DNA of 64,000 bases from Verrucomicrobiaceae bacterium (GTDB lineage: Bacteria; Verrucomicrobiota; Verrucomicrobiia; Verrucomicrobiales; Verrucomicrobiaceae), in NCBI GenBank assembly GCA_027490195.1, contig JAIXYN010000060.1:1-64000 (forward strand). Reading direction: 5' to 3'. Shown piece after piece: positions 40,641-53,480 of this stretch. The notes under the pieces were generated by a model. The model searched no databases. It was not told where the DNA came from and saw only the letters and a program-made list of their open reading frames with translations. Both the position numbers and the translations under genes were made by a program. Positions within the stretch are counted from its first letter, which is position 1, and each line of letters starts with the position of its first letter.

Positions 40641-41019
40641 AGACGTCGAGGGTGTCCTCCTGCGGCACTCCGTCAAAAGACGAAGTCGCGTGGATGGTGA
40701 GTTTGTACATGTCGCTCAAGATGCCGCCGCTGGTGGTTTTCAGCGACAGCGCTTCCGTGCTGGTCGTGTAGGTGATGCCGTAGGTCGTGTCCGCGATGGT
40801 GGTGCTCATCTTGGCCAGCGGCTTGTTCCGCAGCTCTTCGAAAACATTGCGCATCCCGATCCGGATGAGTTGGTCACGTTTCAGCAGGTTCGCCGTCTCC
40901 AGCGCCTGGTTCAGCGACTTCGCCAGCCCCAGCACCGCGATGGCAAAAATCGTTAGCGCCAGCACCAGCTCGAAAAGGATGTAGCCGCGCGAAACCCGAC
41001 CATGGAATTTCGCTTTCAT
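40615..41019 (-). CDS. gspI: Minor pseudopilin GspI
   Basis: Protein of 134 residues with prepilin leader 'GRVSRG/YILFELVLALTIFAIAVLG': Gly at -1 and Glu at +5, then a hydrophobic helix and a short globular domain. Size fits GspI, the core of the pseudopilus tip. The start overlaps the gspH stop by four bases (ATGA), and gspJ starts within its 3' end. Confidence 0.85.
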   Translation of the reverse strand: MKAKFHGRVSRGYILFELVLALTIFAIAVLGLAKSLNQALETANLLKRDQLIRIGMRNVFEELRNKPLAKMSTTIADTTYGITYTTSTEALSLKTTSGGILSDMYKLTIHATSSFDGVPQEDTLDVYVYKPAQP

Positions 41020-47771: not shown

Positions 47772-50363
47772 TCAGCGCCCGCTGACTCCCGCAGGTTTCT
47801 TCGCCTTCTTCTCAGCTTTCGGTTTCGCTTCGCGGGGAGGGAACTCCCAGCCCATGATGCGCTTCTCACCGGGCGTGCAAACCAGGAAGGTGCTGAAAGG
47901 ACGGCCACGTTTGGAAATCATGCCTGTGATCAGCGAGGTCTTGCCATCAGCAAAAAACTCGCGCGCATTTTCCGGCGTGATGTCCTTCTGGCACAGCTTC
48001 TTGGGCAGCCGTGCGTTGCACTTGGTTGTCTCGACAGCGTTGATTTTGCACTGATAGGCGTCCCCCGTTTCGTAGATCTTCTCGCCCTTGCGGCCTTTCT
48101 TGGCGCACACCGGGCAGTCCGTGATCACCGGGCACTCCTCCCAGTTGATGCTGTCGGGATCTGAGCCGTCGCCAAAGACGAAAGCGATCTTCATGTCGTC
48201 CTTGATCTGTAGGGCGGCGCTGAAGTCCTTGCCCTTCTTGCTGCGGAAGCCTTCGAGCGGTCCGAGGAAGCGTGTCTCGATCAGCGTACGAATTTCATCT
48301 TCATTCAGCGCGCGGCTGGCCACGGTCTTGAAAACGCGGACCTTGCATTTCGGATTTTTGCAGCCGTAAAACTCTTCAGTCTGCTTGTAGCCTTCCTTGC
48401 TGCCACACACGCCACAGGTGGCATGGAAGTCAGGGAAAACCTTGTCCTTGGCGGCTTTGGAATAGGCCTTCGTTTTTTCTACGACCTGCTTGGTCAGGTT
48501 GCGGATGTCTCGCATGAAACTGGCTCGGTCCAGCTCGCGATGCTCCATCTGGCGCAGCTTGTACTCCCACTGGCCGGTCATTTCCGGTGAGCTTAGCGCA
48601 TCGATGCCGATGGCGCTGATCTGCTCAATGAGGGCCAGACCCTTGGCGGTGACGTGGAAGTCACGCTGCACACGCTCGATGTACCGGTCCATGATCAGAC
48701 CTTCGATGATCGCAGCGCGCGTCGCAGGCGTACCGAGACCACGTTCGCTCATGGCTTCAGCTATTTCTTCGTCCTCCACGAGTTTGCCGGCACCTTCCAT
48801 CATGGAAAGAATGGTGGCTTCCGTGTAGCGCGGCGGCGGCTTGGTCTGGTGCTCGTTCACTTCGACATCCAAAGTATCGGCCTTGTCGCCGGTATTGGCG
48901 GCCACCAGCAGTTTGGCGGCGTCTTCGCCTCCTTCCGCCGCTTCTTCCGCCGCCTTTTTACCATAGACACCCAGCCAGCCCGGCTCCTTGAGAACCTTGC
49001 CGTTGCTCTGGAACGCATCCTGGCCCACTCGCGTGATGCGCGTGGTCACCTCAAACTCAGCCGCTGGGAAAAACACTGCAACGAACCGTCGCGCCACCAT
49101 GTCGAACAGCTTCTGCTCGGCCTCAGGCAGTTCCTTCGGCGGAATCTGTCCGGTAGGGATGATGGCAAAGTGATCGCTAACCTTGCTGCTGTCGAAAATG
49201 CGCTTGTTGAGCTTCACCCACTTCTTGTCCAGCGCCGTGGCGGCATGCGTGCCCAGTTCATGCGGCAGTGCGTCCTGCTTGCGGCTGTCATGGCTGGCAA
49301 AAGTCTTCAGCGTATCCGTTACTGTGCCGAGATAATCTTCTGGCAGGTGGCGTGAATCCGTTCGTGGATAGGTCAGCACCTTGAACTTTTCATACAGCGC
49401 CTGCGCAATTTGCAGGGTGCGCCGTGCCGAGAAGCCAAAGCGGTTGCTCGCTTCGCGCTGCAGGCTGGTCAAATCGTAGAGCAGGGGAGGGGCCTGCCGC
49501 GTCGGCTTGGTGATCTGCTCGATGACCCCTGGCTTGCCCTTGCAACGGTCGGCGATCGCCTGCGCGGTGCCCTCGTCCCAGAGACGCTCGGCCTTCTTGT
49601 GCTCGTCGTTTTCGTCCTTCTTGAAGCGTTCATCAATCCACCGGCCTGAATACTGGCCTGCCTTCACTTCAAACAGCGCGATCGCTTCAAAATACGTGCG
49701 CGGCACGAAGGCGGCGATGTCACGCTCACGATGAGCCAGCACGGACAGCGTCGGCGTCTGCACCCGGCCCACAGGCGTGAGGCGGAAGCCGCCATGGCGT
49801 GAATTCAGCGCGGTCAGCGCGCGCGTTCCATTGATGCCCACCAGCCAGTCGCTTTCGCTGCGGCACTTCGCAGCGTCCGCCAGCGGCAGCATCTGCTCAT
49901 TGGTGCGCAGGTGCTTGTAGGCATCCAGAATGGATCCTTGGGTCATCGACTGCATCCACAGGCGCTGCACCGGCTTCTTGCAGCCGCTGGCGTCCATGAT
50001 GTAGCGGAAAATCAGCTCCCCCTCGCGCCCGGCATCGCAAGCATTGATCACACTGTCCACGTCCTTGCGCTTCAGCAGCTTCGTCAGCAACTTGTAGCGG
50101 TCCGCGCTTTGTTCGATGGGATTAAGCTCAAACTGCTCTGGCATGATGGGCAGGCTCGTGAAGCCCCAGCCGATTTTCTTCCCATCCACCATCGGCATGC
50201 CGAGTTCCAGCAAATGGCCCACGGCGGAGGAGATCACATGCGTTTCATTCTCGTACCAGTCCTTTTCTTTGGCGAAGGACTTCATGCCAGGGGCTTTGGC
50301 TAGTGCGCGAGCAAGATCGGCGGCGACACTGGGCTTTTCGGCAATGATCAGGACTTTGGGCAT
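47772..50363 (-). CDS. topB: DNA topoisomerase III (type IA)
   Basis: Protein of 863 residues. TOPRIM domain 'VLIIAEKPSVAADLARAL' (1-20 region) and 'NACDAGREGELIFRYI' (Asp/Glu metal set, about 107-122), the catalytic tyrosine Tyr332 in 'LTYPRTDSRHL', and 'TPVGRVQTPTLSVLA', 'ERGLGTPATRAAIIEGLI'. The C-terminal ~200 residues carry Cys-rich zinc-finger-like units ('CGVCGSKEG', 'CKNPKCK', 'CPVCAKKGRKG') and a Lys/Ala tail. It relaxes and decatenates DNA by single-strand passage. It is longer than E. coli TopB (653) because of these extensions. Confidence 0.93.
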   Translation of the reverse strand: MPKVLIIAEKPSVAADLARALAKAPGMKSFAKEKDWYENETHVISSAVGHLLELGMPMVDGKKIGWGFTSLPIMPEQFELNPIEQSADRYKLLTKLLKRKDVDSVINACDAGREGELIFRYIMDASGCKKPVQRLWMQSMTQGSILDAYKHLRTNEQMLPLADAAKCRSESDWLVGINGTRALTALNSRHGGFRLTPVGRVQTPTLSVLAHRERDIAAFVPRTYFEAIALFEVKAGQYSGRWIDERFKKDENDEHKKAERLWDEGTAQAIADRCKGKPGVIEQITKPTRQAPPLLYDLTSLQREASNRFGFSARRTLQIAQALYEKFKVLTYPRTDSRHLPEDYLGTVTDTLKTFASHDSRKQDALPHELGTHAATALDKKWVKLNKRIFDSSKVSDHFAIIPTGQIPPKELPEAEQKLFDMVARRFVAVFFPAAEFEVTTRITRVGQDAFQSNGKVLKEPGWLGVYGKKAAEEAAEGGEDAAKLLVAANTGDKADTLDVEVNEHQTKPPPRYTEATILSMMEGAGKLVEDEEIAEAMSERGLGTPATRAAIIEGLIMDRYIERVQRDFHVTAKGLALIEQISAIGIDALSSPEMTGQWEYKLRQMEHRELDRASFMRDIRNLTKQVVEKTKAYSKAAKDKVFPDFHATCGVCGSKEGYKQTEEFYGCKNPKCKVRVFKTVASRALNEDEIRTLIETRFLGPLEGFRSKKGKDFSAALQIKDDMKIAFVFGDGSDPDSINWEECPVITDCPVCAKKGRKGEKIYETGDAYQCKINAVETTKCNARLPKKLCQKDITPENAREFFADGKTSLITGMISKRGRPFSTFLVCTPGEKRIMGWEFPPREAKPKAEKKAKKPAGVSGR

Positions 50364-50524
50364 GTGCGTATGAACAGGTTATATCGGAAAAAGGGCCTAC
50401 TTAGGGGATGCTTTCGACCCAGATGTCAAGGTTCGCGCACTTTAGACCGCAAATGGGCTACGCTGTTCAGCAGGCTTCAGACTGCCATTCTTAAACGATC
50501 AAAACAACGTTGACGCAGTTTCCA

Positions 50525-50694
50525 GGCCCCAAGCCTTCCATCTCGGAAAGGACTTGGTTCATTGACTCAAAGTCTCAAAGTTGCTTCCCAGGCAGGCTGA
50601 TTTTGTCCTGCCTGGGCGTTTGCAACGTTCTGTGCTTGGCTTCCAAATAGGGAAGCTGCTGCTACCGGCCCTGTGCGGGCCGGCTCACTTTTTA
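50525..50694 (+). ncRNA. Candidate structured small RNA with terminator
   Basis: The 328-base gap 50364-50691 has no open frame but holds four consecutive hairpins: 50529-50557 (CCAAG/CTTGG plus an inner stem), 50580-50626 (GTTGC/GCAAC enclosing a perfect ten-base stem CCCAGGCAGG/CCTGCCTGGG), 50639-50656 (GCTTCC/GGAAGC) and 50665-50683 (CCGGCCC/GGGCCGG). The last is followed by CTCACTTTTTATT on the plus strand, like a terminator for plus-strand transcription. Both flanking genes are on the minus strand, so this would be an independent RNA. No known RNA family is recognised; the 5' end is a guess. Confidence 0.45.
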
Positions 50695-52071
50695 TTCTGT
50701 CACCTCTTGAGGCAGCGGCTTGCCGATGCTGTACACCTTGAATCCGATTTGACGGAGCTTCGCGTGGTCCAGAAGGCTACGGCCGTCGAAAATCCAGGCG
50801 GGTTTCACCATGGACTGATAGATGGCTTCGAAGTCGAGCTGGCGGAATTCATCCCACTCCGTGAGAACCAGAAGAGCGTGCGCGCCAGCGGCTGCCTGCG
50901 CGGCATTGGTGGCGAACTCGACATTCGGATGATCTTCTTCGATGGCGAGATCTTTGCAAATCTGGGCTGAGCCAACCTTTGGATCGTAGATGGAGAGCTT
51001 GGCGCGCTCCTCGATGAGATCCTTGCAGACGTAGATAGCGGCGGATTCGCGGGTGTCGTTGGTGTCTTTTTTGAAGGCGAAACCCAGCACGCCGATGCGC
51101 TTGCCAGTGACTGTGTTGAAGAGGGTGCGCAGCACACGCTCGGCGAAGCGGTGTTTCTGCCAGTCGTTCATGATGATGACCTGGTCCCAGTAGGCGGCGA
51201 CTTCAGGAAGACCGAAATGGCCGCAGAGATAGACGAGATTGAGCACGTCTTTCTGGAAGCACGAACCACCGAAGCCGACGGAAGCCTTGAGGAACTTGGG
51301 TCCGATGCGGGAGTCGGTGCCAATGGCGCGGGCGACTTCATCCACATCTGCACCGGTCTTTTCGCAAAGGGCGGAGATGCTGTTGATGGAGGAGATGCGC
51401 TGAGCGAGGAAGGCGTTGGCGACGAGCTTGGACAGCTCGGAGGACCACAGATTTGTTGTGAGGATGCGCTCCCGTGGAACCCAGTTGGCGTAGACGCTGA
51501 CGAGTGCCTCTATGGCAGCCAGCCCACCTTCGGTCTGCTCTCCGCCGATAAGGATGCGGTCAGGACTGGTGAGGTCAACGACTGCGGTGCCTTCAGCGAG
51601 GAACTCCGGATTGGACAGCACCTGATGTTTCAAACCTTTCTCACTCGAAGCCAGAATGGTCTTAATGGCCTCTGCAGTGCGCACTGGGATGGTGCTTTTT
51701 TCGACGATGATTTTTGGTGTCTCAGCCACTTCGGCGATGGTGCGGGCCACGGCCTCAATGAAGCGCAGATCCGCTGCCTTGTGAGCTCCGACGCCGAAAG
51801 TCTTGGTAGGCGTGTTCACGCTCACAAAAATGATGTCTGCGGCGTGGATGCTGGCTTTGACCTCGGTGGAGAAAAAAAGGTTTTTCCCACGTGATCCGCT
51901 CACGAGTTCATCGAGACCCGGCTCATACACTGGCAGATCGCTGGAATTCCAAGCGGCGATACGCTCGGCATTGAGGTCCACCACATCGACGCGGATGTGA
52001 GGGCATTTGGCGGCGATCATCGCCATGGTGGGGCCACCGACATAGCCGGCGCCGATGCAACAAATTCTCAT
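50692..52071 (-). CDS. ugd: UDP-glucose 6-dehydrogenase (eukaryote-like type)
   Basis: Protein of 459 residues that oxidises UDP-glucose to UDP-glucuronate with two NAD+. N-terminal '[17 protein letters not shown]' Rossmann loop, '[13 protein letters not shown]', '[11 protein letters not shown]', '[13 protein letters not shown]', catalytic Cys271 in '[10 protein letters not shown]', and C-terminal '[17 protein letters not shown]'. The 'GYVGGPT' start and the length are like animal and plant UGDH rather than the shorter E. coli type. It lies 21 bases downstream of the decarboxylase gene, same operon. Confidence 0.92.
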
Positions 52072-53404: not shown

Positions 53405-53480
53405 ATGGAGGCTCAGTGGAGGCTCAGTGGAGGCTCAGTGGAGGCTCAGTGGAGGCTCAGTGGAGGCTCAGTGGAGGATC
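53405..53480 (+). repeat. 11-base tandem repeat, about 7 units
   Basis: First unit ATGGAGGCTCA at 53405, then five perfect copies of GTGGAGGCTCA (53416, 53427, 53438, 53449, 53460) and a partial seventh (GTGGAGGATC at 53471). Because 11 is not a multiple of three, every unit changes the reading frame, so changes in copy number would switch any frame running through it. Confidence 0.95.

Follow-up and report, generated by a model that had tools for sequence, protein, structure and literature searches.

A hairpin-rich spacer between topB and ugd in a Verrucomicrobiaceae bacterium as a probable fossil of an operon junction in the 3′ flank of ugd

The window, the whole stretch of 64,000 nucleotides, carries topB, encoding DNA topoisomerase III (47772–50363; NCBIfam NF006032, score above the cut-off), and ugd (50692–52071; Pfam UDP-glucose/GDP-mannose dehydrogenase family). 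Both genes lie on the minus strand, in agreement with a preliminary description of this DNA, and are separated by a spacer of 328 bp. The four tandem hairpins described in this spacer are all present, by sequence inspection and by folding. H1 (50529–50557) is an interrupted stem; H2 (50580–50626) consists of a perfect 10-bp stem (50587–50596 paired with 50607–50616) nested, as had been reported, in a second stem of GTTGC (50580–50584) and GCAAC (50622–50626); H3 (50639–50656) is a GCTTCC/GGAAGC stem; and H4 (50664–50684) is a GC-rich stem just past the ugd stop codon, with a CCGGCCC/GGGCCGG core at 50665–50683. H4 is placed on the minus strand, and the other three hairpins are given no strand. 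A T tract of the plus strand (50689–50693), which on the minus strand is an A tract after the ugd stop, covers part of the complement of the stop codon (50692–50694), so the end of the hairpin block does overlap the 3′ end of ugd.

The hairpin block has a fold z-score of −3.89, and none of 200 shuffled sequences was as stable; in a scan of the window with 40 shuffles per segment, the values were −5.14 for the plus strand and −4.58 for the minus strand. The lowest z-score among 400 background segments of 208 bases each (−5.17) belongs to a segment overlapping the hairpin block, and the runner-up reached −3.65. The place is unusually structured, as had been claimed, and since both strands fold well, folding cannot choose between them. 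A scan of the window against Rfam gave no match at the gathering score. The best permissive match, to Bp1_684 (RF02421) on the minus strand at 50578–50694, shares mainly a GTGA-GCCGGCCC stem; its 19.3 bits (E 0.064) fall short of the gathering score of 44, and it was treated as chance. The GC-rich hairpin followed by TTTTT, read earlier as the end of a plus-strand transcript, is likewise present, with G-C pairs at 7 of 7 positions of H4; however, the T tract starts 5 bases after the stem, and a terminator scan of 50200–50900 (701 bases) found one site where shuffles average 0.9, so that the terminator-like part alone does not rise above chance. The T tract is found in G000 (the window's own genome), G020 and G029 and is missing from G011, G003 and G010, that is, from three of the six homologues; it is nearer the canonical arrangement in G020 and G029, both of which pass a stricter terminator rule.

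The spacer was searched against 56 genomes; the relatives share one GTDB genus, and G000 is a draft assembly (95% complete, 101 contigs). Strong matches are of two kinds, one lying before topB and the other after ugd. The first, module A (50364–50539, minus strand; spacer bases 1 to about 176), is the topB upstream region, matched with E below 1e-10 in 12 other genomes and adjoining topB starts in the loci that were read; it is unrelated to the origin of the hairpin block. This region is itself unusually conserved (84–90% in the closest genomes) and has a TTGACA box on the minus strand. Module B (spacer bases 177–328) matches the region directly after ugd. The match in G020 is 91% identical and 154 bases long, those in G011 and G029 are split into two pieces, and G027 has a 54-base piece. 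Alignment to the topB upstream region of G011 stops near 50539/50540, where alignment to the ugd 3′ flanks of G020 and G011 begins. In G011 the two modules share a contig and are separated by about 36 kb; in G020 and G029 they are on separate contigs; in G027 and G030 a further gene stands between them and the distance is about 1.2 kb. As judged by these alignments, the spacer is a chimera whose joint, a deletion scar, lies near 50539/50540. The hairpin block is not conserved as a unit apart from its flanking genes, its close matches (G020, G011, G029 and G027) being at the ugd 3′ end. A 5′ leader or attenuator of topB would fit the position of the block upstream of topB on the minus strand, but the block lies away from topB in G011, G020 and G029 and module A alone is conserved with topB, which makes such a leader very improbable. 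H1 has one arm on each side of the joint and is therefore younger than it, which speaks against an independent RNA comprising all four hairpins.

A truncated gene remains at the joint. A minus-strand frame at 50494–50562 begins with about seven codons matching MNQVLSKI, the broken start of an uncharacterised gene X, after which an unrelated frame contributed by the topB side takes over. In G020, G011 and G029 an intact copy of gene X comes after the ugd 3′ flank. Gene X was not found in draft G000; its protein matches no family in Pfam or NCBIfam, and the provisional name "FkbM-like" was dropped for this reason. The surviving start of gene X favours loss here over gain elsewhere. In the same three genomes the ugd 3′ flank runs on into genes not found in G000; in G011 the intervening 36 kb hold a polysaccharide-type cluster with glycosyltransferases, an O-antigen-ligase-type protein and a chain-length-determinant kinase, and the latter has matches of only 23–29% in G000. 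As G000 is a draft, gene absences in it are not proof of loss. The locus resembles the gene remnants found at the borders of polysaccharide clusters in having a decayed 5′ end and a truncated gene X beside ugd, with the cluster missing, but differs in that the remnant folds into a strong hairpin whose stems are unchanged relative to G020. A different, unrelated hairpin-rich stretch lies between ugd and gene X at one other locus (L039, G058).

The decayed 5′ end belongs to a flippase-like gene, so labelled from a Pfam Polysacc_synt match (E 0.0022, below the cut-off) together with its gene context; no relative of the protein was found in the PDB. The gene lies directly after ugd in G003, G010 and G022, and on the G003 contig, where ugd residues 262–457 match at 92%, the flippase start follows 51 bases on. 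In local alignment to this G003 junction, none of 1000 shuffles was as good for the window, G020, G011, G029 or G027. The block in the window aligns along its length, sharing CCGGCCC..GGGCCGG, then AGCTTCCC..ATGGAAGCC across the start codon and CGCC.AGGCAGG..GCCTGCCTG in the first flippase codons. The relic (50575–50646, minus strand) is open for 23 codons from a TTG and keeps the old frame, reading LEAKHRTLQTPRQDKISLPGKQL in the window versus MEASPKTMNAPRQGLRLPALEGV in G003; it then meets a stop, and the rest of the gene is missing here. The start codon, which lies under H3, is ATG in G003, G010 and G029 and TTG in the window. With the G010 flippase start as the target, 3 of 500 shuffles scored as well as the window, a marginal result, and neither G027 (155 of 500) nor G030 (282 of 500) reached significance. 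A covariance model of H2 (R1), built from G011, G029 and G027 and searched in 28 genomes, found G011 and the window (E 2.2e-4), along with seven weaker matches. One of the seven falls on the opening codons of the flippase gene of G003 (G003:C61:656–715, E 0.022); the remainder are in G004, G008, G017, G005, G015 and a second place of G011. Flippase homologues at E 1e-20 occur in 9 of 48 genomes of the genus, G000 not being among them (best match 26% identity). Intact flippase genes are carried further on in G020, G011 and G029, which makes the relic a surplus gene start that stayed next to ugd. By these alignments, H2 and H3 represent the decayed 5′ end of the flippase-like gene, and H4 is identified as the ugd–flippase intercistronic stem. 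The palindromic and extragenic character of the sequence could also suggest a copy of a repetitive extragenic palindrome (REP) that landed between the genes, and the GTAG type of these elements is reported from the PVC group (PMC3733652). Such an element would require many copies per genome, yet no multi-copy spread was seen in G000: the 8+8 bp core pattern occurs at 2 places in 7.0 Mb among the candidates scored (at most 150 per genome), and the H2 model has one match in G000. Homology to a gene start explains the block, and the REP reading was rejected as having practically no chance of being correct.

The reading that joins these observations, to which a probability of about 0.75 is given, is that the hairpin block is the minus-strand 3′ flank of ugd and a fossil of an operon junction preserved at a deletion scar. 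In the ancestor, ugd would have been followed directly by the flippase-like gene, with H4 between them, H3 over the start codon and H2 in the first codons. In this lineage, the 5′ end of the flippase gene would have stayed beside ugd and decayed, while gene X and others came to lie between the relic and the intact flippase; the window's genome would then have lost the whole stretch starting at codon eight of gene X and reaching the topB upstream region, which fused the block to topB and by chance created H1. The origin and the joint are shown by the alignments; the functional role proposed further below is an inference. The independent plus-strand transcript of the preliminary description finds no support, the block being ugd 3′ flank derived from a minus-strand junction; that account was right about the structure and probably wrong about strand and independence.

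Whether the stems have been under selection was considered in six homologues of H4. The compensatory changes looked for in relatives are present to a limited extent, with double-sided changes in 2 of 8 pairs, but both come from a single genome, G010; the covariation score was reached by 2 of 500 shuffles and the count of double-changed pairs by 34 of 500. In 7 of 7 ugd–flippase or relic junctions a stem keeps one position, beginning at base 9–11 past ugd, a count that leaves out loci L045, L047, L061 and L062; the stem of G022 has the same offset and a different sequence, and that of G010, taken alone, was matched by 15 of 200 shuffles. Between the window and G020, none of 57 stem positions has changed as against 12 of 95 elsewhere (Fisher p 0.004, with the outermost pair of H4 placed among the non-stem positions). 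The block as a whole is 92% identical to G020, compared with 69% at four-fold sites of ugd; however, among seven other spacers of at least 60 bp, four align with G020 at 81–95% and three do not align, so that an RNA cannot be deduced from high identity alone. As far as the sequence comparison goes, the hairpin block is under constraint, or was so in the recent past, to a degree that is not exceptional, and the unchanged stems make a minus-strand role as a 3′ element of ugd plausible.

The same data bear on a small RNA transcribed independently from the plus strand, with an intrinsic terminator overlapping the ugd 3′ end and antisense pairing with the ugd mRNA. The strong fold, the conservation of the stems in G020 and the T tract past H4 in G000, G020 and G029 are what such an RNA would show, and in a survey of 68 gene ends, a terminator-like site facing the gene was found at two only, namely the ugd genes of G020 and G029. 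However, the block comes from a minus-strand operon junction, H1 is a product of the joint, no Rfam family is matched, and the T tract is wanting in G011, G003 and G010. The outermost pair of H4 in the window is kept on the minus strand only, as G-U, and becomes an A-C mismatch on the plus strand (one case). No sigma-70-like site was found in 50200–50900 (shuffle mean 0.3), a weak test, as sigma-70 rules may not be those of the genus. A plus-strand small RNA is thus judged quite improbable. A bidirectional or plus-facing terminator that shields ugd from antisense transcription from the topB side would draw on the GC-rich stem, flanked towards ugd by an A tract that the other strand reads as a T tract, and on the forms of G029 and G020, which come closest to canonical; it is faced with the five-base spacer in the window, the chance-level scan, the loss of the T tract in G011 and a minus direction that has no U tract, and it is regarded as unlikely, though somewhat less so than the small RNA.

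In the survey of 68 gene ends, many of which are orthologous to each other, a strong stem was present at 24, versus 2 of 68 positions inside genes. The impression that a strong stem after genes is a habit of the genus was weakened by a larger sample from G000 (the window and L156–L175; 436,764 bases, 168 gene ends), in which 23 of 168 ends had a strong stem, whereas shuffles predict 5.6 and 9 of 168 positions inside genes had one. The excess is found mainly at convergent ends, where a strong stem without a T tract occurs at 13 of 62 against 1.7 in shuffles; codirectional ends gave 10 of 106 (shuffles 3.9, in-gene 6), and T-tract terminators on the sense side were found at 4 of 168 ends. From this larger sample, a strong stem after ugd is neither unique nor the rule.

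Returning to the fossil junction in the ugd 3′ flank, the stems today probably lie in the 3′ untranslated part of a uxs–ugd mRNA, where they would slow 3′ decay by hindering 3′ exonucleases and perhaps curb read-through into topB. Intercistronic and 3′ untranslated stem-loops that stabilise mRNA form a general class, and the GC-rich stem right after the stop codon, in the same place in all seven homologous junctions, resembles its members; unlike in that class, the stems next to H4 derive from a gene start. A further reading, considered unlikely, is that the fossil gene start was co-opted as a structured 3′ element of the ugd mRNA: weakly palindromic Pro-Arg-Gln-Gly-Leu-Arg-Leu-Pro codons would have been sharpened to the perfect 10-bp stem after the death of the gene and kept by selection, possibly as a stable 3′-derived RNA. 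If the stems are kept by selection, the locus would illustrate on a small scale how the start of a dead gene can become a 3′ element. No RNA gene is needed to produce a conspicuous row of hairpins: palindromes within the codons of a gene start, the spacer of an operon and the joint of a deletion can together do so, which calls for caution in RNA discovery from folding alone. A literature search on termination and hairpins in Verrucomicrobia and on small RNAs in Prosthecobacter, at the level of titles, returned none on this locus.

Two further features of the window were recorded. A 339-bp spacer between two minus-strand genes (40677–41015) is 92% identical to G020 over its full length and lies beside two segments whose fold z-scores are among the lowest in the window; it matches no Rfam family at a permissive threshold, and it is possibly a leader RNA. 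At 53406–53477 there is a perfect 11-base tandem repeat of 6.5 copies, the period of which is no multiple of three.
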